Shown one piece after another: positions 5,385-17,777 of a DNA stretch of 64,000 nt. A program made the translations under genes and the position numbers. Positions within the stretch are counted from its first letter, which is position 1; each line of letters opens with the position of its first letter. Origin of the DNA: Mycolicibacterium monacense (lineage in GTDB: Bacteria; Actinomycetota; Actinomycetes; Mycobacteriales; Mycobacteriaceae). The stretch is from NCBI RefSeq assembly GCF_010731575.1, contig NZ_AP022617.1, positions 2,790,001 through 2,854,000 on the forward strand, read 5' to 3'. The notes beneath the pieces are model-generated. The model did not search any database. It worked only from the letters and a program-made list of their open reading frames with translations, and had not been told where the DNA came from.

Positions 5385-6242
5385 TCAGCCCGTGGCTTCG
5401 GCTTTCGCCAATTCGGCCTTCCACTGACGGAAGGTCTCCTCGGTGCGCCCCCGCCGCCAGTAACCCGAGATCGACGACGCCCATTTGGCGTCGACGCCGC
5501 GTTCCTTGCGGATGTAGGGCCGCAGGTTGTGCATGACGGCCTGGGCCTCACCGTGGATGAACACCTGCACCTGGCCGGGTAACCACGACGCCTCCTTGAC
5601 GGCCGCGACGAGCGGGGCGTTGTCACCGGCAGCCTCCTCGGGGACCAGATCGGCGCGTCCGCCACGGTAGATCCAGCTGACCGACACCCCGTCCGGCGCG
5701 GACAGCGGTAGTACGTCGTCGGGTCCCGCGACCTCGATGAACGCCTTGCCGACGGCATCGGGCGGCATCGCCTCGAGCACGGCGCTGATGGCAGGCAGTG
5801 CGGCCTCGTCGCCGGCGAGCAGGTGCCAGTCCGCCGCGGCATCCGGGCTGTAGGCGCCGCTCGGCCCCATGAGGTAGGCCGGTTGACCGGGCTGCGCGGA
5901 GGCCGCCCACGGTCCGGCCACCCCGTGTTCGCCGTGCACGACGAAGTCGATCGTGACCTCGCCGCGTTCCGGGTCGACCTTGCGCACCGTGTAGGTCCGC
6001 ACCACCGGCTGCTTCTCCACTGGCAGCGCCTTGAAGCTGTCGAGGGTCAGCGGCGCCTCGAGCGCGGACACGTCGACCCCGTCCGGGACGATCACGAGTT
6101 TGACGTAGGCGTCGGCGAACTCGTTGGGGGTGAAGGTGTCGAAGCCGGACGATCCGTTGCCGCCGAGCACCACACGGATCATGTGCGGTGCGAGCTGCTC
6201 CGTGCGCACCACCTCGAACCTGTGCACCGGTCGTCCCGCCAC
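5385..6242 (-). CDS. viuB: Siderophore-interacting FAD-binding reductase (ViuB family)
   Basis: Cytoplasmic flavoprotein of the siderophore-interacting protein family, expected to reduce ferric siderophores with NAD(P)H and release iron. The 285-residue protein has an N-terminal FAD-binding beta-barrel with the VVRTYTVR motif and a C-terminal SIP domain (HLLAGDEAALPAI, then VFIHGEA). The GTG at 6242 is chosen because GGAGG lies five bases upstream and translation begins MAGRPVHRFEVV. The M. tuberculosis orthologue is Rv2895c, annotated viuB, at the same place between xerC and dprA. Physiological siderophore unknown. No clear IdeR box was seen upstream. Confidence 0.88.
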   Translation of the reverse strand: MAGRPVHRFEVVRTEQLAPHMIRVVLGGNGSSGFDTFTPNEFADAYVKLVIVPDGVDVSALEAPLTLDSFKALPVEKQPVVRTYTVRKVDPERGEVTIDFVVHGEHGVAGPWAASAQPGQPAYLMGPSGAYSPDAAADWHLLAGDEAALPAISAVLEAMPPDAVGKAFIEVAGPDDVLPLSAPDGVSVSWIYRGGRADLVPEEAAGDNAPLVAAVKEASWLPGQVQVFIHGEAQAVMHNLRPYIRKERGVDAKWASSISGYWRRGRTEETFRQWKAELAKAEATG

Positions 6243-6306
6243 GACTGCCTCCAAACTCTCGACTGATTCCCACCGACGATACGAGCGCGCCCGGCGATGC
6301 AGTGAC

Positions 6307-7437
6307 CTACCGTCCCCGCGCCATCCTCCAGCGGCCGCCCTCATGTACCACCAAGCCTGCCACCTCCAACATCGCCAATGGCCCCACGACCTGGTAGGCG
6401 GGGATACCCGCGGCGACCGCGACCTCGTCCGCACTGCGCGCGCCGCGTTTGGGCAGGGCGTCGTAGATCCGTCGCTCGGCGTCGGTGAGCCCGTCGAGCG
6501 GTGTGGCCGGTCCGGCCTCGACCGGCGGGAGCTCTCCCATCCGTCCGACCAGCTCGATGATCTCCTCGGCACGGGTCACCAGGATCGCGCCGCCGTCGCG
6601 CAGCAGGCGGTGACAGCCCACCGACGCCCCCGACGTGACCGGTCCGGGCACGGCGCACACGTTGCGACCGAGAGCGCCGGCCCACGCCGCGGTGTTCGCC
6701 GCACCGCTACGCGCCCCCGCCTCGACCACCACCGTGGCACCCGACAGCGCCGCGACGAGCCGGTTGCGGGTGAGGAAGCGGCTGCGCGTCGGGCGGGACC
6801 CCGGTGGATATTCGCTGAGCACCAGCCCGTTCGCGCGAATCCTGGCGAGCAGCGCGGAGTGGCCCGCCGGGTAGGGCACGTCGATACCGCCCGCCACGAC
6901 AGCGACCGTCACCCCCTCGCCCGCGAGCGTCGCCCGGTGCGCGGCGCCGTCGATACCGAACGCGCCACCGGACACCACCGCGACGTCGCGCATCGCCAGC
7001 CCGGCGGCCAGATCCGCCGCCACGTGTTCGCCGTAGGCGGTGGCCGCCCGGGTGCCGACGATCGCCGCCGCCCGCTCGGCCACCTCGTCCATACCGACCG
7101 GGCCGACCGCCCACAGCACGAGCGGCGGGTGGCCCTGCGGCCGCTTCTGCGTGTCGACGCCGGTGAACTTCAGAAAGTTCAACAGCGGCCATTCGTCGTC
7201 GAAGGCGGTGACCAATCGCCCGCCCATCCGGGCCAGCACGTCGAGATCCGCTTGCGCACAATCATGTTCGCGGCGGGCCTCGGTCTTGCGCCTCAACCGC
7301 TCACCCACCTCGGCGCGCCGGATCTTCTCGGCGGCCTCGACCGGCCCGACGTCGGTGACCAGGGCCGCCAGTTCCGGACACGGCGGTTCGGCGACCCGCG
7401 ACAGATACGCCCACGCGCGCGTTTCGATGGTGTTCAT
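6307..7437 (-). CDS. dprA: DNA-processing protein A
   Basis: A DprA/Smf homologue of 376 residues. In naturally competent bacteria DprA loads RecA on incoming single-stranded DNA; its role in mycobacteria is unsettled. The Rossmann-like core carries SGGAFGIDGAAHRATL and the downstream YPAGHSALLARI and SEYPPGSRP stretches typical of the family, followed by a C-terminal winged-helix region (about 310-376). ATG at 7437 overlaps the stop of comM by 4 nt (ATGA), indicating translational coupling in the yraN-comM-dprA string. Confidence 0.93.
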   Translation of the reverse strand: MNTIETRAWAYLSRVAEPPCPELAALVTDVGPVEAAEKIRRAEVGERLRRKTEARREHDCAQADLDVLARMGGRLVTAFDDEWPLLNFLKFTGVDTQKRPQGHPPLVLWAVGPVGMDEVAERAAAIVGTRAATAYGEHVAADLAAGLAMRDVAVVSGGAFGIDGAAHRATLAGEGVTVAVVAGGIDVPYPAGHSALLARIRANGLVLSEYPPGSRPTRSRFLTRNRLVAALSGATVVVEAGARSGAANTAAWAGALGRNVCAVPGPVTSGASVGCHRLLRDGGAILVTRAEEIIELVGRMGELPPVEAGPATPLDGLTDAERRIYDALPKRGARSADEVAVAAGIPAYQVVGPLAMLEVAGLVVHEGGRWRMARGR

Positions 7438-8945
7438 CGGATACCCGCCACGTTCCTGAAGCTCAGCGCGATACCGATCTCGTCGACGCCGGGGACCTGT
7501 CGGCCGGCGAGATCGGCGAGGGTCCACGCGACCCGCAATGAGCGGTCGACCCCCCGGATGCTCAGCACGCCGCGGTCGAGTGCCGAGCGCAAGGGCTCCA
7601 TCGCCTTGGTGGCGAGTCCGAACTTCCGCCGCAGCAACGATCCGCTGACTTCCGCGTTGGTGCGGATGCCGTAAGGGCGCCACCGTTCTGCGGCGGCGGC
7701 TCGCGCCGCGGCCACCCGTGCACGCACGACGGCGCTCGATTCCCCCGGTTCCGGCGCAAAGGCCCCCGCCTTCACCGCGTGCATCTCCACCCGCAGGTCG
7801 ACACGATCCATCAGCGGACCCGAGAGCTTGCCGAGATAGCGCTGTTTGATGCCGCCGGGACAGCTGCAGTTGCGCGGGTCGGCAGGTGCGCACGGGCACG
7901 GGTTGGCCGCCATCACCAGTTGGAAGCGCGCCGGGTAGCGGGCCACGCCGTCGCGGCGGGCCAGCCGTATCTCCCCGTCCTCCAACGGGGTTCGCAACGC
8001 TTCGAGGGCGCTGACCCGGATCTCGGCGCATTCGTCGAGGAACAAGACGCCGCGGTGGGCCCGACTCACCGCGCCGGGCCGCGCCATCCCCGCACCACCG
8101 CCGACCAACGCAGCGACGCTGGAGGTGGGGTGCGGCGCCACGAACGGCGGTCTGGTGATCAGCGGCGCGGCACCGGTCAGCAGACCCGCCACGGAGTGGA
8201 TCGCGGTCACCTCGAGCGACTCCTGCTCCGACAGCGACGGCAACAACCCCGGAAGGCGTTGAGCCAGCATGGTTTTACCGACACCGGGCGGTCCGGTCAG
8301 CATGAGGTGGTGGGCTCCGGCGGCGGCCACCTCCACGGCGTAGCGGGCATGCGCCTGACCGACGACGTCGGCGAGGTCGGCCGTCTCACCCGAAGGGGCG
8401 GGCGGCGCAGCGATCCGCGGTTCGAGGTCGGCCTTGCCCGCCAGCCACCTCCGCAGGTGCCCGAGGGTGCGCACTCCCCACACGTCGATACCGTCGATCA
8501 GGCCGGCCTCGGCGAGGTTCTCGCAGGGGACGACAACCGTCGGCCAGCCCTCACGCTTGGCGGCCAGCACCGCGGGCAGCACCCCTTTCACCGGACGCAC
8601 CCGGCCGTCGAGCGCCAATTCGCCGAGTAGGACGGTCTTCTCGAGCCGTGTCCACTCCGTCTTCTCGTGGGCGCACATCACCGCGGCGGCCAACGCCACG
8701 TCGTAGACCGACCCCATCTTCGGCAGCGTCGCAGGAGAGAGCGCCAGCGTCAGCCGGGACATCGGCCATTCGGCGCCGCAGTTGGTGATCGCCGCACGCA
8801 CACGGTCACGCGACTCCTGCAGAGCCGCATCGGGCAGCCCGACCAGATGCACCCCCGGCAAGCCGGAGGAGATGTCGGCCTCGATCTCGACGATCACCCC
8901 GTCCAGGCCCAGCACCGCCACCGAGAAGGCCCGTCCCAGCGCCAT
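7434..8945 (-). CDS. comM: YifB/ComM family Mg-chelatase-like AAA+ ATPase
   Basis: 503-residue AAA+ protein. In Vibrio ComM is a branch-migration helicase acting in integration of transforming DNA; YifB homologues are near-universal and often sit beside dprA, as here. The N-terminal ChlI/Lon-protease-like domain (GLPGVHLVGLPDAALQESRDR) is followed by Walker A GPPGVGKTML, Walker B LFLDECAE and the C-terminal Mg_chelatase_C domain. ATG at 8945 shares one base with the yraN stop (TGATG). Confidence 0.92.
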   Translation of the reverse strand: MALGRAFSVAVLGLDGVIVEIEADISSGLPGVHLVGLPDAALQESRDRVRAAITNCGAEWPMSRLTLALSPATLPKMGSVYDVALAAAVMCAHEKTEWTRLEKTVLLGELALDGRVRPVKGVLPAVLAAKREGWPTVVVPCENLAEAGLIDGIDVWGVRTLGHLRRWLAGKADLEPRIAAPPAPSGETADLADVVGQAHARYAVEVAAAGAHHLMLTGPPGVGKTMLAQRLPGLLPSLSEQESLEVTAIHSVAGLLTGAAPLITRPPFVAPHPTSSVAALVGGGAGMARPGAVSRAHRGVLFLDECAEIRVSALEALRTPLEDGEIRLARRDGVARYPARFQLVMAANPCPCAPADPRNCSCPGGIKQRYLGKLSGPLMDRVDLRVEMHAVKAGAFAPEPGESSAVVRARVAAARAAAAERWRPYGIRTNAEVSGSLLRRKFGLATKAMEPLRSALDRGVLSIRGVDRSLRVAWTLADLAGRQVPGVDEIGIALSFRNVAGIR

Positions 8946-9313
8946 CACGCCACCCCCGTCAGGTGGGTGATCTCCGGGGTGGCCTGCCGGCCGATACGCA
9001 CCCCGATGACGTCGATCCGCACCGCTGCCCAGCGTTCGTCCCGACCGGCCAGCCACAACCCGGCCAGCCGGCGCAGCCGTCGCACCTTCTGCGGCGTGAC
9101 CGCCTGCACCACCCCGCCGAAGTGGTCAGTGGTGCGGGTCTTGACCTCCACGAACACCACCGCCCGCGCGGCCGGGTCCTCGGCGATCACATCGAGCTCA
9201 CCGTAGCGGCACCGCCAATTACGTTCCAGCACACGCATTCCCAGCGAGTCCAGGTGTTTGACCGCCAAGTCTTCCCCCAGCGCGCCGATCGCCGCACGAG
9301 TCCACGTAGTCAT
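8945..9313 (-). CDS. UPF0102 family protein YraN (Rv2898c-like nuclease-fold protein)
   Basis: A 122-residue UPF0102 protein. It has the endonuclease-like fold signature GELDVIAEDP followed by VVFVEVKTRT, i.e. the E/D-D-ExK arrangement of PD-(D/E)XK nucleases. The ATG at 9313 (MTTWTRAAIGALGEDLAVKHL) gives the family's usual N-terminus; an upstream in-frame extension adds residues not found in homologues. First gene of the yraN-comM-dprA string. Activity has not been established in mycobacteria. Confidence 0.85.
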   Translation of the reverse strand: MTTWTRAAIGALGEDLAVKHLDSLGMRVLERNWRCRYGELDVIAEDPAARAVVFVEVKTRTTDHFGGVVQAVTPQKVRRLRRLAGLWLAGRDERWAAVRIDVIGVRIGRQATPEITHLTGVA

Positions 9314-10507: not shown

Positions 10508-11368
10508 ATGAGCACCAGACCCGGCTACGGCGGAGGCATGGGTAGTGGCAGGGGCAGCGCCGGTGTCAATGGCGCGGTCAACAAGGCGACCAACAGCGAC
10601 GCCTTCGAATACACCGCCCGGGCCGGGTTCGCCGCGAGCGGGGTGCTCCACCTGCTGGTCGGCTACATCATCCTGCAGATCGCCCTCGGCAGCGGCGGCA
10701 ACGCCGACCAGTCCGGGGCGCTGGCGACGCTGGCCGGCCAGACCGGCGGCAAGATCGTGTTGTGGATCGCCACCATCGGATTGATCGCCCTGGGCCTGTG
10801 GCGGTTGGCCGAGGCGTTCATCGGCGCCAAGCCCGGCGAGCAGTACGGACAAGCCCAGGGCGACAACCCCGCCTGGAAACGCGCCAAGTCCGTGGGGCTG
10901 GCGATCGCCAACTTCGCCATCGCCTTCTCCGCGCTGCAGTTCGCCACCGGCGGCGGTCAATCCAGCGGCCAGCAGAACTCCGGGATCTCGGCCCAACTGA
11001 TGCAACACGGCTGGGGTAAGGCGCTGTTGATCCTCGTCGGCCTCGGCGTCATCGCGGTCGGCGGCTACCACGTCTACAAGGGCGCCACCAAGAAGTTCCT
11101 CGAGGACCTCCGGGTCACCGGCGGCACCGGCATCAACGCGGTCGGCGTCGCCGGCTACGTGGCCAAGGGCCTGGTACTCGCCGGGGCGGGCATCCTCGTC
11201 ATCGTCGCGACCCTGCAGGCCGACCCCGCGAAGGCCTCCGGTCTCGACGCGGCTGTCAAGACGCTCGGGCAGGCGCCGTTCGGCAAGTTCCTGCTCATCG
11301 TCGCCGCGGTCGGCATCGCCGCGTTCGGCGCCTACAGCTTCGTGCGCAGCCGCTACGGCCGCCTGTAA
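10508..11368 (+). CDS. DUF1206 family integral membrane protein
   Basis: A 286-residue protein with a Gly-rich N-terminus (residues 1-25), then three related two-helix units, the DUF1206 repeat: ARAGFAASGVLHLLVGY, AKSVGLAIANFAIAF and VGVAGYVAKGLVLAGAG start the three units. Between them are short basic loops such as GATKKFLEDLR. AGGAGG precedes the ATG. DUF1206 proteins are common in actinobacteria and cyanobacteria and have no established function. A strong hairpin follows the stop codon, so the gene is probably monocistronic. Confidence 0.85.
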   Translation: MSTRPGYGGGMGSGRGSAGVNGAVNKATNSDAFEYTARAGFAASGVLHLLVGYIILQIALGSGGNADQSGALATLAGQTGGKIVLWIATIGLIALGLWRLAEAFIGAKPGEQYGQAQGDNPAWKRAKSVGLAIANFAIAFSALQFATGGGQSSGQQNSGISAQLMQHGWGKALLILVGLGVIAVGGYHVYKGATKKFLEDLRVTGGTGINAVGVAGYVAKGLVLAGAGILVIVATLQADPAKASGLDAAVKTLGQAPFGKFLLIVAAVGIAAFGAYSFVRSRYGRL

Positions 11369-11389
11369 CCGCCCGAACCACCGAACCGT

Positions 11390-11410
11390 CGCCGCAGCCT
11401 CGCTGCGGCG
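11390..11410 (+). terminator. Terminator hairpin after the DUF1206 gene
   Basis: CGCCGCAGC-ctc-GCTGCGGCG is a perfect 9-bp stem with a 3-nt loop, 22 nt after the stop codon. A TTTT run comes only 9 nt further on, so this is a GC-rich mycobacterial-type terminator. Confidence 0.65.
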
Positions 11411-11573
11411 GCGGCTCGCTTTTCGGCTCCATCGCCCGGCAAATGCGCCGGCGACCGCACAACCCAGCTACAGCATCTCCAACGATTCCGGCAGCTACCG
11501 AACGACGAATTCCGGTCACGGCGGTCCGCCATCGTGGATGCCGACTCCGTCCCGGCGGGGAGGTAGGGAAGGG

Positions 11574-11601
11574 TATCTTCACTTAGGTCTGCCTCAGGTC
11601 A
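11574..11601 (+). promoter_or_regulatory. -10 element overlapped by an IdeR/DtxR-like box, iron-transport operon
   Basis: TATCTT (11574-11579) fits the TANNNT -10 pattern. Immediately downstream, TTAGGTCTGCCTCAGGTCA (11583-11601) matches the 19-bp DtxR/IdeR consensus TTAGGTTAGCCTAACCTAA at 13 of 19 positions by eye, with the left half (TTAGGT) perfect. A box covering the start site is the classic arrangement for iron-dependent repression. Operator function is inferred from position and from the iron-transport genes that follow. Confidence 0.5.
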
Positions 11602-11632
11602 CAGCGCCCGTGGCGCGGAAAGGATGCACTGG

Positions 11633-12661
11633 ATGCGACCACGTTTGAGCCGGATCAGCCGCCCGATCGTCGCCGTAGTGTCGGCCCTCGCGGTGGTGAC
11701 CGGTCTGGCCGCCTGCTCGAGTTCGGACGACTCCGACGAACTGCTGATCTACAACGCCCAACACGAGTCGCTGACCAAGGAGTGGATCGACGCCTTCACC
11801 AAGGAGACCGGCATCAAGGTGTCCTACCGTCAGGGCGGCGACACCGAACTCGGCAACCAACTGGTCGCCGAGGGCGATGCCTCACCGGCCGACGTCTTCC
11901 TGACCGAGAACTCCCCCGCCATGGCCGCCGTCGAGCGCGCCGGACTGTTCGCCGACCTCGACGCCGCCACGATCGACCAGGTTCCAGCGCAGTACCGTCC
12001 GGCCACCGGTAAGTGGACCGGCGTCGCCGCGCGCAGCACGGTGTTCGTCTACAACCCGTCCCGGCTCAAGGCCGATCAGCTGCCGAAGTCCCTGCTCGAT
12101 CTGCAGCAGCCCGAATGGAAGGGCCGCTGGGGCGCACCGCCGGCCAAGGCCGACTTCCAGGCGATCGTCGCCGCGTTGCTCCAGTTGGAGGGCGAGCCCG
12201 CGACCGCGCAGTGGCTGGCCGGGATGAAGGCGAACGCGGTCATCTACAACGACAACATCGCCACACTCAAGGCCGTCAACGCCGGTGAGGTCGACGGCGG
12301 CGTGATCTACCACTACTACTGGTTCCGCGATCAGTCCAAGACCAAGGAGATCAGCGGCAACACCGCGCTGCACTACTTCAAGAACCAGGATCCGGGCGCG
12401 TTCGTCAGCCTCTCCGGCGGCGGGGTGCTCGAGTCGAGCGACAAGAAGGACCAGGCGCAGCAGTTCATCACGTTCATCACCGGTAAGGCCGGTCAGGAAG
12501 TGCTCGAGAAGGGCACCTCGTTCGAGTACCCGGTCGCCAGCGGGGTGCCCGCCAACCCCGCTCTGCCGCCGTTGGACACCTTGCAGGCACCGACGGTCGA
12601 TCCCTCGACGCTGGACGCGCAGAAGGTGACCGATCTGATGACGAAGGCTGGCTTGCTGTAG
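11633..12661 (+). CDS. Ferric-iron-type ABC transporter substrate-binding lipoprotein
   Basis: 342-residue lipoprotein. The signal peptide ends in the lipobox LAAC (Cys28), so the protein is anchored outside the membrane. The mature part is a type-II periplasmic binding fold of the FutA/FbpA group: LLIYNAQHE at the start of lobe 1, and GVIYHYYWFRDQ, whose adjacent tyrosines correspond to the Fe(III)-ligand YY pair of this family. It should bind Fe(III) or a ferric chelate and deliver it to the permease that follows. ATG at 11633 is preferred to the ATG at 11624 because AAAGGA then sits about 8 nt ahead. First gene of a four-gene operon; no gap before the permease. Confidence 0.88.
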   Translation: MRPRLSRISRPIVAVVSALAVVTGLAACSSSDDSDELLIYNAQHESLTKEWIDAFTKETGIKVSYRQGGDTELGNQLVAEGDASPADVFLTENSPAMAAVERAGLFADLDAATIDQVPAQYRPATGKWTGVAARSTVFVYNPSRLKADQLPKSLLDLQQPEWKGRWGAPPAKADFQAIVAALLQLEGEPATAQWLAGMKANAVIYNDNIATLKAVNAGEVDGGVIYHYYWFRDQSKTKEISGNTALHYFKNQDPGAFVSLSGGGVLESSDKKDQAQQFITFITGKAGQEVLEKGTSFEYPVASGVPANPALPPLDTLQAPTVDPSTLDAQKVTDLMTKAGLL

Positions 12662-14242
12662 GTGGTCGCCGCCGCCCCGCCCGTTCCGCCCCCCGCGACA
12701 CCGGTCGCGCGGTCCGACAAGAACGCCCGTCCCGGCCCACTGGTGTCCGGCACGGTGGCGATCCTGGTCGCCGCCACACTGGTCCCGCTGGGCTACGTGG
12801 TGTGGGGTGCGGTCTCCATCGGGTGGGACCGGGCGTACGAACTGGTGGTCCGGCCGCGCGTCGGCGAACTGCTGCTCAACACCGTCGCACTGGTCGCGGT
12901 CACCGTTCCGCTGTGCGTGGTGATCGGCGTCGGCGTGGCGTGGCTGGTGGAACGCACCGACCTCCCCGGCCGGGCGTTCTGGCGTCCGCTGTTCGTCGCG
13001 CCACTGGCGGTCCCGGCGTTCGTCAACAGCTACGCCTGGGTCGGCGTCATCCCGTCGCTGCACGGGTTGTGGGCGGGCGTCCTGGTCACCACCCTGTCCT
13101 ACTTCCCGTTCATGTACCTCCCTGCGGCCGCGACGCTGCGCCGACTCGACCCGGCCGTCGAGGAGTCGGCGCGCGCGCTCGGCTCCCACTCCACCGGAGT
13201 GTTCTTCCGGGTGGTGCTGCCCCAGTTGCGGCTGGCCATCCTCGGCGGCGCACTGCTCATCGCCGTGCACCTGCTCGCGGAGTTCGGCGCGTTCGCGATG
13301 GTGCGCTTCGACACCTTCACCGTCGCGATCTTCCAGCAGTTCCAGGTGACCTTCGACGGTGCGGCGGGCAGCATGCTGGCCGGGGTACTGGTGCTGCTGT
13401 GTCTCACGCTGCTCGTCGCCGAGGCCGCCGCCCGCGGGAACGCGCGGTACGCCAGGATCGGGTCGGGGACGCAGCGCGCCGCCACGCCGGTTCACTTGGG
13501 CGCCAACATGATCCCTGCGCAGCTGACGCTGGCCGCCCTGGCCGTGCTGGCTCTCGGGGTGCCGGTGTGGACGATCCTGCGCTGGCTCCACATCGGCGGC
13601 GCCGAGGTGTGGGCGTTCGACGACATCGGCGAGGCGCTCGGCCAGACCGTCGCACTGGCCGGTATCGCGGCCGCGCTGACGACGGTGCTGGCCTTCCCCG
13701 TCGCGTGGGTCGCGGTGCGGTCCAGCGGATTCCTGGCCCGCGCGGTCGAAGGCGCCAATTACGTGACGAGTTCGCTGCCCGGCATCGTCACCGCACTTGC
13801 GCTCGTCACCGTCACCATCCACGTCGTGCGCCCGCTCTACCAGAGTGTGGCGCTCATCGTCTTCGCCTACGTGCTGCTGTTCATGCCGCGCGCCCTGGTC
13901 AACGTGCGCGCCGGGCTGGCCCAGGTGCCGACCGGTCTCGAGGAGGCCTCCCGCTCACTCGGCCGCTCCCCGACGGTGACGTTCCTGCGGGTGACGTTGC
14001 GTCTCACCGCACCCGCCGCGGCGGCCGGCGCGTCGATGGTGTTCGTCGCCGTTGCAACGGAACTGACCGCGACGCTGCTCCTCGCCCCCACCGGCACGCG
14101 CACGCTGTCGATGCTGTTCTGGTCCTACGCCAGCGAACTCGACTACGCCGCCGCCGCACCGTACGCGCTGGTGCTGGTCCTGCTCGCGGTGCCGGTGACG
14201 ATGATCCTGCTCAAGCAGTCGACGAAGGGGGCCGCCCAGTGA
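12662..14242 (+). CDS. Ferric-iron-type ABC transporter permease (fused double unit)
   Basis: 526 residues with two tandem BPD_transp_1 units, about 12 membrane helices, as in SfuB/FbpB. Each unit carries an EAA loop for docking the ATPase: EESARALGSHSTGVFFRVVLP near residue 166 and EEASRSLGRSPTVTFLRVTLR near residue 428. The GTG start follows the lipoprotein stop codon without a gap, so translation is presumably coupled; the stop overlaps the ATPase start by 4 nt. Confidence 0.9.
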   Translation: MVAAAPPVPPPATPVARSDKNARPGPLVSGTVAILVAATLVPLGYVVWGAVSIGWDRAYELVVRPRVGELLLNTVALVAVTVPLCVVIGVGVAWLVERTDLPGRAFWRPLFVAPLAVPAFVNSYAWVGVIPSLHGLWAGVLVTTLSYFPFMYLPAAATLRRLDPAVEESARALGSHSTGVFFRVVLPQLRLAILGGALLIAVHLLAEFGAFAMVRFDTFTVAIFQQFQVTFDGAAGSMLAGVLVLLCLTLLVAEAAARGNARYARIGSGTQRAATPVHLGANMIPAQLTLAALAVLALGVPVWTILRWLHIGGAEVWAFDDIGEALGQTVALAGIAAALTTVLAFPVAWVAVRSSGFLARAVEGANYVTSSLPGIVTALALVTVTIHVVRPLYQSVALIVFAYVLLFMPRALVNVRAGLAQVPTGLEEASRSLGRSPTVTFLRVTLRLTAPAAAAGASMVFVAVATELTATLLLAPTGTRTLSMLFWSYASELDYAAAAPYALVLVLLAVPVTMILLKQSTKGAAQ

Positions 14243-15288
14243 CCGGCCCCGCCATGCTCGAAGTCCGCGCCCTGGCCAAGACGTTCCACGACCACACGGT
14301 GCTCGATCACATCGACCTCGACCTGGCACCGGGCAGCCTGACCGCCGTCGTCGGAGCCTCCGGATGCGGGAAGACCACCCTGCTGCGGCTGATCGCCGGG
14401 TTCGAGACCCCGGACTCCGGAACCATCGCCATCGCCGGCCGGCAGGTGGCGAGCGCGACGAGTTCGGTTCCACCGCACCGCCGCAGCGTCGGATACGTCG
14501 CCCAGGACGGCGCCCTCTTCCCGCACCTGACCGTCGGCCAGAACATCGCCTACGGCCTGTCCGGCACCACCCGAAGCGCCGCGGTGCGCACCAGGGTCGC
14601 CGAGCTGCTCGAAACCGTCTCTCTGGAGCCGAGTTTCGCCGCCCGCCGTCCCCACCAGCTGTCGGGCGGCCAGCAACAGCGCGTCGCGCTGGCCCGTGCA
14701 CTGGCCCGCGAACCGGACCTGATGCTGCTCGATGAACCGTTCAGTGCCCTGGACACCGGCCTGCGCGCGTCCACCCGGAAGGCCGTCGCGGGACTGCTGT
14801 CCCGGACCGGCGTGACCACGCTGCTGGTGACGCACGACCAGGAGGAGGCGCTGTCGGTCGCCGACCAGGTCGCCGTCATGCGCGACGGCCGCTTCACCCA
14901 GGTCGGCACGCCCGAACACGTCTACCGCCGGCCCGTGGACCGGTTCACCGCCGAATTCCTCGGCGACTGCATCACGCTGCCGTGCACCGTCACCGCCAAC
15001 GTCGCCGACAGCGCGCTGGGACGCATCCCGGTGATCGCCGACGACGGTCCGGGAACCTTGATCCTGCGCCCCGAACAGCTCGTGGCGACGGTCGTCTCCG
15101 ACAGCGGCCGGCTCGACGGCGTGGGCACCGTCATCGCCACCGAATTCCTCGGTCACGACGTACTGCTCACGATCGACCCGGCCGGCGACGGCGCGCCGAT
15201 CGTCGTGCGCCAGCACAGCCTCGCCCCTCCGCCGGTGGACGCCAAGGTGCGCATCGAGGTGGTGGGTCACGGAGCGGTGCTGAAATGA
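14239..15288 (+). CDS. Ferric-iron-type ABC transporter ATP-binding protein
   Basis: 349-residue ATPase of the FbpC/PotA group. Walker A GASGCGKTTLL, Q-loop VAQDGALFP, signature LSGGQQQRVALARAL, Walker B LMLLDEPFSALD and the switch His in LLVTHDQEEAL are all present. A C-terminal TOBE-like regulatory domain occupies about residues 240-349. The GTG start overlaps the permease stop by 4 nt (GTGA), and its own stop overlaps the next ATG by 4 nt (ATGA), so all four genes are tightly coupled. Confidence 0.93.
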   Translation: MTGPAMLEVRALAKTFHDHTVLDHIDLDLAPGSLTAVVGASGCGKTTLLRLIAGFETPDSGTIAIAGRQVASATSSVPPHRRSVGYVAQDGALFPHLTVGQNIAYGLSGTTRSAAVRTRVAELLETVSLEPSFAARRPHQLSGGQQQRVALARALAREPDLMLLDEPFSALDTGLRASTRKAVAGLLSRTGVTTLLVTHDQEEALSVADQVAVMRDGRFTQVGTPEHVYRRPVDRFTAEFLGDCITLPCTVTANVADSALGRIPVIADDGPGTLILRPEQLVATVVSDSGRLDGVGTVIATEFLGHDVLLTIDPAGDGAPIVVRQHSLAPPPVDAKVRIEVVGHGAVLK

Positions 15289-17777
15289 GCCGCCTCGTCG
15301 ATTGTCTTCGCGCGCACGGGGATCGGATCGCGGTACTCACCGATTCCGAGCGGCTCTCATACCGCGACCTCGCCGACCTGGTGTCCGGGTCGGCCGCCCG
15401 TCTCGGGGACACCCGTCGTCTGGTGATGCTCGAGACCCGCAACGACCTGCCGACCCTGGTGCACTACCTGGGGGCGCTCGCCGGCGGCCACGTGGTGCTG
15501 CCGGTGCCTGCCGGACGCGATCACCGCGAGTTGACGGCCACCTACGATCCCGACGTCGTGGTCGACGGGTGCGGACCGCAGATCAGGCGCGAGGGCAGCG
15601 CACACCGCCTGCACGACGACCTGGTGCTGCTGTTGTCCACCTCGGGCAGCACCGGCTCACCCAAGCTGGTCCGGCTCTCGCGGCGCAATCTGCTCAGCAA
15701 TGCCCATGCGATCGCCGACTACCTCGACATCCGCGAAACCGACCGCGCCGCAACGACACTGCCGATGTCGTACTGCTACGGCCTGTCGGTGGTCCACAGC
15801 CACCTGCTGCGCGGCGCCGCGCTCATCCTCACCGAACACTCCGTGGTCGACGACGAGTTCTGGACGTTGTTCCGCCGCCACGGCGGCACCACCTTCGCCG
15901 GTGTGCCCTACACGTTCGACCTGCTCGACCGCGCCGGTTTCGACACCATGGACCTGCCGCACCTGCGCTATGTCACCCAGGCCGGTGGACGGTTGGCGCC
16001 CGAACGGGTGAAACGGTACGCCGAACTCGGCGCGGCACGCGGCTGGCAGCTGATCGTCATGTACGGCGCGACCGAGGCGACGGCCCGGATGGCCTACCTT
16101 CCGCCCGACCTCGCCGCCGAGCATCCCGGCTGCATCGGCGTACCGATCCCGGGCGGCTCGTTCACGATCGAGGCGCTGGACGGCTGGCCGGCCGACGATG
16201 CCGCGGGCGAACTCGTCTACCGCGGGGACAACGTGATGATGGGCTATGCGCACACCGCGGCCGATCTGTCGCGCGGCGACGAGGTCGAGGCGCTGCACAC
16301 CGGCGATATCGCCCGCCGCCGGCCCGACGGTCTCTACGAGGTGATCGGCCGCAGCAGCCGGTTCGTCAAGATGTACGGCCTGCGCATCGATCTGCAGCGG
16401 CTCGAGACGGCGCTGCGTGCGCGTGGCGTGCCCGCGTTGTGCTCCGACCTCGACGACCGCCTCGTCGTCGCCGCGACCGCACCGCAGCGCCCGGCGGAGG
16501 TCGCCCGGCTGGCCGCCGAGGCCGCGGGTGTGCCGTCGAGCGCGGTGCACGCCGTGGTGGTCGCCGACCTGCCGGTGCTGCCGACCGGCAAACCGGACTA
16601 CCCCGCGGTGCGGGCACTGGCGGCGCCGGTCGACGACGCACCGCCGACCACGGATCTGACGACCGTGTTCGCCGAGGTGCTGCACCTCGACAGGGACGGC
16701 ATCGACCCGGACGCCAGCTTCGTCGACCTCGGCGGCAACTCGCTGACCTACGTGGCGATGTCGGTCCGGCTGGAACGGGCACTGGGCCGCCTGCCCGCCG
16801 ACTGGCAGCGCGTGCCGCTGCGCGATCTGCAGACCCGCGCGGTACCGCCGCGCCGGCGCTGGACGGCCACCCTCGAGACCAGCGTCGCGCTGCGCGCGGT
16901 CGCGATCGTGCTGATCGTCGGGTCGCATGCCACGCTCTTCGAACTGTGGGGCGGGGCGCATGTGCTGCTGGGCATCGCGGGGTACAACTTCGGCCGGTTC
17001 TGTCTGACCCCCGCTCCCCGCGCGCAGCGGGTCCGGCACCTGCGCACGACGATCGCCTGGATCGCGGTCCCGTCGGTGGTGTGGGTGGTGATCGCGCTAC
17101 TGGTCACCGACGACTACCACCTGTCGAACCTGTTGCTGGCCAACAAGTTCCTCGGTCCGCACGACAGTATGACCGCCGGGCGGCTGTGGTTCGTCGAGGT
17201 GCTGGTGTGGACCCTCGTCGCGCTGGCGGTGCTGATGGCGGTGCCCGCCGCCGACCGGGCCGAGCGGCGGTGGCCGTTCCTGTTCGCCGTGGTGTTCCTG
17301 GCCGCCGGCCTGGCGTTGCGCTACGACATCCTCGGGCTCGACCTGGGCCGCGACGCGTGGTTCACGATGCTGACCTTCTGGTTCTTCGCGGCCGGATGGG
17401 CCGCGGCGAAGGCCACGGCACCGTGGCAGCGGGTGGCGGTCACGACGGCCCTCGTGGTCAGTTTGTACGGGTACTTCGGGAACACCAACCGCGAGATCCT
17501 GGTGCTCGCCGGCTTCCTGCTGCTGATCTGGCTGCCCGCGCTGCGCTGCCCGCCCGGGTTGACGGTCATCGCGGGCGTCGTCGCCGAGGCGTCGCTGTAC
17601 ACCTACCTCACGCACTTCCAGGTGTACGCATTGTTCGAGGGGCGTCCCGCGCTCGGCGTCGCCGCGTCGATCGCGGTGGGTGTGCTGCTCACCCAGGCGC
17701 TCACCCTGCTGCGCCGGCGGTTGCGCGACCGCCGGCCGAGCGTCAGTGCGGCGACGGCGGTTCCCGCTCGGCGATGA
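15285..17777 (+). CDS. Adenylation domain - carrier domain - membrane acyltransferase fusion protein
   Basis: 830 residues in three parts. Residues ~1-445 are an ANL adenylation domain with core motifs in order: STSGSTGSPK (119-127 region), YGATEAT (260-266), HTGDIARRRPDG (338-349), GRSSRFVKMYGLRI (355-368) and the lysine motif PTGKPDY (433-439). Residues ~455-520 are a phosphopantetheine carrier domain, DLGGNSLTYV, with S486 as the expected attachment site. Residues ~528-815 are about ten hydrophobic helices of the acyltransferase-3/OafA type, with the family's R-X10-H motif at R537-H548 in the first helix. The domains imply activation of a carboxylic acid, thioester loading and transfer to an acceptor at or across the membrane. 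Acid and acceptor are unknown. It is coupled to the ABC transporter, suggesting an iron-chelate role. Confidence 0.88.
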   Translation: MSRLVDCLRAHGDRIAVLTDSERLSYRDLADLVSGSAARLGDTRRLVMLETRNDLPTLVHYLGALAGGHVVLPVPAGRDHRELTATYDPDVVVDGCGPQIRREGSAHRLHDDLVLLLSTSGSTGSPKLVRLSRRNLLSNAHAIADYLDIRETDRAATTLPMSYCYGLSVVHSHLLRGAALILTEHSVVDDEFWTLFRRHGGTTFAGVPYTFDLLDRAGFDTMDLPHLRYVTQAGGRLAPERVKRYAELGAARGWQLIVMYGATEATARMAYLPPDLAAEHPGCIGVPIPGGSFTIEALDGWPADDAAGELVYRGDNVMMGYAHTAADLSRGDEVEALHTGDIARRRPDGLYEVIGRSSRFVKMYGLRIDLQRLETALRARGVPALCSDLDDRLVVAATAPQRPAEVARLAAEAAGVPSSAVHAVVVADLPVLPTGKPDYPAVRALAAPVDDAPPTTDLTTVFAEVLHLDRDGIDPDASFVDLGGNSLTYVAMSVRLERALGRLPADWQRVPLRDLQTRAVPPRRRWTATLETSVALRAVAIVLIVGSHATLFELWGGAHVLLGIAGYNFGRFCLTPAPRAQRVRHLRTTIAWIAVPSVVWVVIALLVTDDYHLSNLLLANKFLGPHDSMTAGRLWFVEVLVWTLVALAVLMAVPAADRAERRWPFLFAVVFLAAGLALRYDILGLDLGRDAWFTMLTFWFFAAGWAAAKATAPWQRVAVTTALVVSLYGYFGNTNREILVLAGFLLLIWLPALRCPPGLTVIAGVVAEASLYTYLTHFQVYALFEGRPALGVAASIAVGVLLTQALTLLRRRLRDRRPSVSAATAVPARR

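Follow-up and report, generated by a model that had tools for sequence, protein, structure and literature searches.

Why should an operon for the uptake of ferric iron end in a gene for an enzyme that seems equipped to activate an acid, load it on a carrier and transfer it at the membrane? The question is raised by a 64,000-nucleotide stretch of the Mycolicibacterium monacense genome (contig NZ_AP022617.1, positions 2,790,001 to 2,854,000; hereafter the window), the host genome being a single contig of 6.04 Mb. An earlier note on this DNA had proposed that an importer and this enzyme are made together and that the cell makes or modifies an iron-binding ligand as part of uptake. The four genes form an operon at window positions 11624-17777, with a zero gap and then two 4-nt overlaps between successive open reading frames (ORFs), coordinates that bear out the idea of a co-made gene set. 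The lipoprotein ORF starts at 11624, position 11633 being the second methionine in frame. The operon, the box before it and the domains of its fourth product (hereafter the fusion enzyme) are as follows:

11583..11601, + strand: DtxR/IdeR-like iron box TTAGGTCTGCCTCAGGTCA, 13/19 matches to the consensus
11624..12661, + strand: ferric-binding lipoprotein of the SfuA/YfuA/FbpA class, 345 aa; HYY at residues 230-232; lipobox LAAC by reading
12662..14242, + strand: fused two-domain iron permease, 526 aa; Pfam BPD_transp_1 in two stretches
14239..15288, + strand: importer ATPase, 349 aa; Pfam ABC_tran and TOBE_2
15285..17777, + strand: fusion enzyme (adenylation, carrier and AT3 membrane acyltransferase), 830 aa; Pfam AMP-binding, PP-binding and Acyl_transf_3
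15285..16625, + strand: adenylation (A) domain, residues 1-447; A10 lysine is Lys436 (16590-16592)
16656..16790, + strand: carrier domain, residues 458-502; PF00550 E 6.9e-10; predicted arm site Ser486 (16740-16742)
16848..17732, + strand: AT3 (Acyl_transf_3) membrane domain, residues 522-816, from the helices of the predicted model, R537-X10-H548, SXXXY (770-774) and the profile

The first three genes appear to encode a ferric importer of the FbpABC type with a YY pair, as had been claimed before; the PDB matches, the HYY motif, the fused permease and the ATPase all agree with it. The best PDB match of the window lipoprotein was 8k7n (E 9.6e-132), followed by YfuA (1xvx, 2.3e-129) and SfuA (1xvy, 2.6e-128). 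Pfam assigned it to SBP_bac_6, and its top NCBIfam models were 2-aminoethylphosphonate transporters, well under their cut-off (75 vs 310 bits). HYY, whose two tyrosines we take to be iron ligands, was kept in 19 of 21 aligned lipoproteins, the window's included; the remaining two rows (L055, L061) are wrong reading frames, and the L078 lipoprotein is absent from the ORF calls. Lipoproteins that accompany the fusion enzyme elsewhere belong to more than one ferric class: the three searched against PDB fell into three, SfuA/YfuA for the window, HitA/FbpA for L086 and FutA-like for L090, and the others were typed by percentage identity. The operon thus has the lipoprotein, fused permease and ATPase of FbpABC, SfuABC and YfuABC systems and differs from them in its fourth gene, for an acyl-activating enzyme, which in other genomes has a box of its own. 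We found no description of an FbpABC system with such an enzyme in the open-access literature; SfuABC-like genes have been reported in Arthrobacter, in a paper whose available part does not name one (PMC3534580).

In the fusion enzyme the key catalytic residues are intact. K436, S486, R537, H548 and Y774 were invariant in all 49 sequences of an alignment from which L060, L082 and L089 were left out. S770, the serine of SXXXY, was invariant in a 14-row alignment and did not figure among the positions kept by at least 46 of the 49 rows; the window protein also has an RXXR sequence (R584-R587), a motif of TM3 in AT3 proteins, the second arginine of which is not kept by all of the 14 rows. By itself the membrane domain of the window protein is a weak match to Acyl_transf_3, with 25.0 bits (28.5 for the excised domain) against a curated cut-off of 31. 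Of 31 family members scanned, 30 matched this profile at E <= 1e-3, the best at 2.9e-14, and their membrane part hit no further Pfam family. PF01757 is moreover a precomputed domain in many of the relatives listed; the best named relatives are from Mycobacterium sp. IS-1496 (90% identity) and from Mycolicibacterium baixiangningiae and litorale (83-84%). The predicted model had a pTM of 0.52, so that its domain packing is unreliable, and structural comparison spans residues 1-447.

The acid that is activated is probably not an amino acid, since the aspartate that binds the alpha-amino group in A domains of non-ribosomal peptide synthetases (NRPS) is replaced by an invariant Gly166. The enzyme differs from NRPS in this replacement and also in that the domain scan found no condensation domain. 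Arg268, which is invariant and aligns with what we take to be position 331 of PheA, might have pointed to a dicarboxylic acid; the same arginine occurs in all 27 A-domain relatives read (26 of the 30 A-domain-only loci described below, plus L097), and is not diagnostic. The similarity to the model of the 2-oxoglutaryl-ACP ligase AmcH was likewise set aside, the match being too weak (71 bits vs a cut-off of 370).

Two known systems resemble parts of this architecture. D-alanylation by the Dlt proteins also proceeds in series through adenylation (DltA), a carrier (DltC) and membrane transfer (DltB). The fusion enzyme has the same serial order, although in one polypeptide, with AT3 in place of the MBOAT protein DltB and with glycine in place of the amine-binding aspartate. 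With AT3 acyltransferases such as OafB and OatA it has in common R-X10-H and SXXXY, the motifs given for TM1 and TM9 of these domains in the available part of PMC9833829, and it differs in that the partners of its AT3 domain are a carrier and an A domain for activating an acid, where theirs is SGNH. The fusion partners named in that part of the source are limited to SGNH, alanine racemase and eukaryotic fusions (PMC9833829).

Is the association of enzyme and importer peculiar to the window? The gene-neighbourhood survey that the earlier note had called for revealed a conserved pairing. Among 397 genomes of the order, at least 27 of 50 near-full-length fusion genes had a related permease no more than 10 kb away; the window's genus accounts for at least 13 of its 17 and the other genera for at least 14 of their 33. 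These 50 are fusion matches of ~700 residues or more, with split or cut matches (G149, G058, G065, G161, G212, G327) and A-domain-only matches set apart; positions were compared by hand, and the permease search (E <= 1e-40) gave mostly one match per genome, which makes the pairing count a lower bound. In a second set, the best 80 of at least 498 confirmed loci (34 actinobacterial, 16 proteobacterial and 30 A-domain-only, with the importer sought by tblastn), importer genes were near 20 of the 34 actinobacterial fusion genes, and three of the other 14 (L054, L087, L097) are on contigs that are short or that break off within the locus. The paired genera include Mycobacterium, Streptomyces, Nocardioides, Pedococcus, Janibacter, Agromyces, Saccharothrix, Lentzea, Phytohabitans and Arthrobacter, and the importer may precede the fusion gene in the same direction, follow it, diverge from it (as in Streptomyces iakyrus NRRL ISP-5482, L049) or converge on it. 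Whether the fusion gene lies mostly apart from importers, which would speak against the ligand-making proposal, has thus a mixed answer, as it stands apart at 23 of 50 loci in the order survey, 14 of 34 in Actinobacteria and 16 of 16 in Proteobacteria.

Plasmids carry the same arrangement. By tblastn, fusion matches occurred on 102 plasmid records, 31 of them covering 80% or more of the query, and five of the six plasmid loci examined had importer genes, in the order lipoprotein-permease-ATPase-fusion in M. chubuense and M. crocinum and fusion-lipoprotein-permease-ATPase in three Rhodococcus records; the fusion gene of the Pseudarthrobacter defluvii plasmid had no importer. Its recurrence across many genera, and on plasmids too, is why we consider the arrangement above chance. 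The M. monacense genome itself holds a second complete copy of the operon (L045, 5817-12039), with identities of 77% for the lipoprotein, 73% for the permease, 75% for the ATPase and 64% for the fusion enzyme, which clusters in the tree with the M. chubuense plasmid copy. A P-type ATPase gene is located 2 kb downstream of L045. At another locus (L135, 7114-16060), a single FbpABC set has a fusion gene on either side; the two are 55% and 40% identical to that of the window, and each has an iron box close to its start.

A link with iron is suggested independently of the importer. Boxes were scored as matches out of 19 to a 19-bp DtxR/IdeR consensus. The sole site of at least 13/19 within the window is that at 11583-11601, which lies 22 bp upstream of the lipoprotein start; one or more such sites occur in 34 of 100 random 64-kb windows, and in 0.35% of 2000 composition-matched draws of a region like 11369-11640. 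Before the fusion gene or its operon, 33 of the 34 actinobacterial loci have a box of at least 13 and 30 have one of at least 14, the exception being L054 (12), as compared with 4 of 232 and 0 of 232, respectively, in the remaining upstream regions at these loci. This agrees with the connection between fusion gene and iron put forward in the earlier note. A further 18 loci from the order survey had usable upstream DNA, and 15 of them scored at least 13, the misses (L011, L018, L020) belonging to the window's genus; the six plasmid loci examined were all boxed. As many as 13 of the 14 importer-less actinobacterial loci also have a box (L051, L052, L053, L058, L063-L066, L071, L085, L087, L089, L097; L051 and L065 are from Arthrobacter). 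In Actinobacteria, then, the fusion gene seems to belong to the iron-starvation response by itself, with or without an importer.

The regulator may be one of the two DtxR-family proteins (Fe_dep_repr_C) encoded in the window's genome. IdeR sites are known at mbt-type clusters and beside pheA and ferritin genes. A scan of this genome allowing up to 3 mismatches found 7 places vs 1 for the reversed pattern and gave the box mixed validation. Of the six places inspected, with genes identified by eye, three flank an NRPS/polyketide synthase cluster that includes an mbtH-like gene, a fourth has a pheA-like gene on one side and on the other a gene close to a ferritin-like one, and two adjoin genes without a visible iron link.

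Shared control could also arise if the fusion gene and the importer merely answered to the same repressor while serving unrelated pathways. The fusion gene is, in fact, often alone with its own box. We nevertheless hold such coincidence to be very improbable, given that a quick tree of the fusion protein implies at least 5 changes in partner class, 6 in layout and 7 in pairing, and that gapless or 4-nt-overlap operons recur (the window, L194, L195, L197). The tree comprises 47 rows (the window and 46 loci, 12 of the 16 proteobacterial ones among them, without the actinobacterial L054, L060, L070, L082, L087, L089 and L097) and has open forks and some long branches.

We therefore propose, at roughly even chances, that the fusion enzyme is made under iron starvation to activate an acid, load it on its own carrier and transfer it at the membrane, and that the product is a ligand feeding the ferric importer. 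At low iron a DtxR/IdeR-type repressor would be released, and importer and enzyme would be made together. The A domain would adenylate a carboxylic acid without an alpha-amino group, which would be loaded onto the phosphopantetheine arm of the enzyme itself. From the order of the domains, we infer that AT3 takes the acyl group from this fused carrier; it would then pass it across the membrane and on to an acceptor at the outer surface, which might be a glycan, a lipid headgroup or a small alcohol or amine, the whole enzyme acting as a Dlt-type relay in one protein. The product of this acylation would most likely hold Fe3+ soluble or near the membrane and hand it to the lipoprotein, so that enzyme and importer would make up one siderophore-like route on top of the uptake of free Fe3+. 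This is largely the ligand-making interpretation of the earlier note, to which the operon, the importer type, the conserved pairing and the iron link lend partial support; its variant with an imported xenosiderophore has become less likely, because the three partner lipoproteins tested are of the free-Fe3+ class.

Several observations weigh against this proposal. The donor described for AT3 domains, in the available part of PMC9833829, is acyl-CoA, not a fused carrier. The window box reaches only 13/19, and neither it nor the L045 box, also 13/19, is among the seven places of the stricter genome scan. In the window's genus, four fusion genes out of 17 lack an adjacent importer, and three of those four have no box either. 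All four (L126-L129) lie near comM, as does the window operon, which suggests that the importer may have been lost there. Finally, the homologues from Proteobacteria have these catalytic residues too, with neither iron box nor importer (DtxR/IdeR-like box in 0 of 16 loci; importer in 0 of 16 by tblastn), so the chemistry is not specific to iron by itself.

The proteobacterial loci bear on a different explanation, namely that acylation of envelope glycans or lipids adapts the cell surface to iron starvation through charge, permeability or vesicle release, the acyl group not binding iron and the importer being co-made in response to the shared signal. AT3 proteins do acylate diverse carbohydrates (PMC9833829, available part), and a polysaccharide flippase gene adjoins the homologues of Asticcacaulis and Caulobacteraceae (L073, L076), hinting at a glycan acceptor there, while a second AT3 acyltransferase gene directly follows those of the sphingomonads (L069, L091). 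The recurrent pairing with three classes of free-Fe3+-binding protein, on plasmids too, suggests a tighter link than this account would have, and we regard it as somewhat unlikely. Fur boxes before 14 proteobacterial homologues did not exceed control windows, and among the neighbours inspected of proteobacterial and stand-alone genes no partner was common to more than a few loci.

The A-domain-only relatives are stand-alone, acyl-ACP ligase-like proteins (L095-L125; best NCBIfam model TIGR03098) from glycan or LuxE-LuxC clusters. Their best segments are 34-46% identical over the A domain and they have YGLS-like and YGQTEAxxR motifs in common with the fusion enzyme (27 of 27 read). They differ in having a separate ACP-sized gene, a match without membrane domain and, in scanned loci, short-chain dehydrogenase/reductase (SDR), LuxE, LuxC or glycan genes as neighbours, and by tblastn none of the 30 loci has the importer.

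Might the enzyme instead act on a siderophore made elsewhere in the genome, acylating or exporting it for tailoring or membrane anchoring, with the importer only taking up the freed Fe3+? The order survey offers substrates, as NRPS-independent siderophore (NIS) synthetases occur in 170 of 397 genomes and salicylate synthase above its cut-off in 63 of 397. A precedent exists in Streptomyces coelicolor, where desJGH is a DmdR1-controlled locus with an acyltransferase outside the siderophore clusters, and desGH indicate that such genes can serve siderophores (PMC12161575, available part). It is the closest parallel to the fusion gene in the literature that we consulted, and differs from it in its protein types, and the regulon list in the same part includes no FbpABC with an adenylation-AT3 fusion (PMC12161575). 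On the other hand, no siderophore cluster recurs beside the fusion gene: in 54 loci, beyond the fusion gene and importer region, no gene cluster covers more than 5 loci (clusters of at least 3 genes, only some of them identified).

Salicylate synthase is the starter enzyme of mycobactin. Among 42 genomes of the window's genus, it is absent from 14 of the 16 with the fusion gene and present in two, while 20 of those without the fusion gene have it and 6 do not (Fisher p 7.7e-5). This speaks against a tie to mycobactin, with a count confounded by clade, and together with the lack of a recurrent cluster it makes the action on such a siderophore improbable in our judgement. The same pattern might suggest that the fusion gene replaces mycobactin. 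In an Smc tree, however, each trait changes 5 times and 0-2 of 5 independent pairs are informative, so that a sign test is not significant; the pattern is bound to clade and we keep the replacement as a lead only. The rows of G281, G207 and the outgroup G317 in this tree are partial, and L193, the second piece of the split G207 Smc, was left out. M. vaccae is reportedly a mycobacterium without mycobactin, according to an old report that our search of the open-access literature did not find.

Returning to the proposal of a ligand feeding the importer, its consequences reach beyond M. monacense. To our knowledge, it is poorly understood how insoluble iron reaches the importer in bacteria that take up free Fe3+. 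The pairing of importer and adenylation-carrier-AT3 enzyme, of which we found no description in the open-access literature, points to an undescribed handling of iron at the cell surface in soil bacteria related to mycobacteria and Streptomyces. The enzyme is widespread, apparently iron-regulated and complete in its key catalytic residues, and plasmids carry it along with the importer; its spread, apparent regulation and intact residues should make the product findable by comparing strains. If the product does bind iron, one protein would be making a siderophore-like ligand of a new class. In a bolder version, possible though doubtful in our view, a single membrane protein would turn a common acid into a ligand for ferric iron and put it in place outside the membrane. 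Together with FbpABC it would give Actinobacteria a mobile alternative to siderophores that travels on plasmids; the ligand would then be a one-enzyme chelator, membrane-tethered or exported, that feeds free-Fe3+ importers.

The window contains some other genes close to the operon. A siderophore-interacting protein (FAD_binding_9 and SIP domains) is encoded on the reverse strand at 5385-6572, a second iron-related gene 5 kb from the operon, and comM is located near it at 7440-9032. Directly upstream of the operon and 5' of the iron box is a gene for a DUF1206 membrane protein (10508-11368, + strand), which we did not count as part of the operon.

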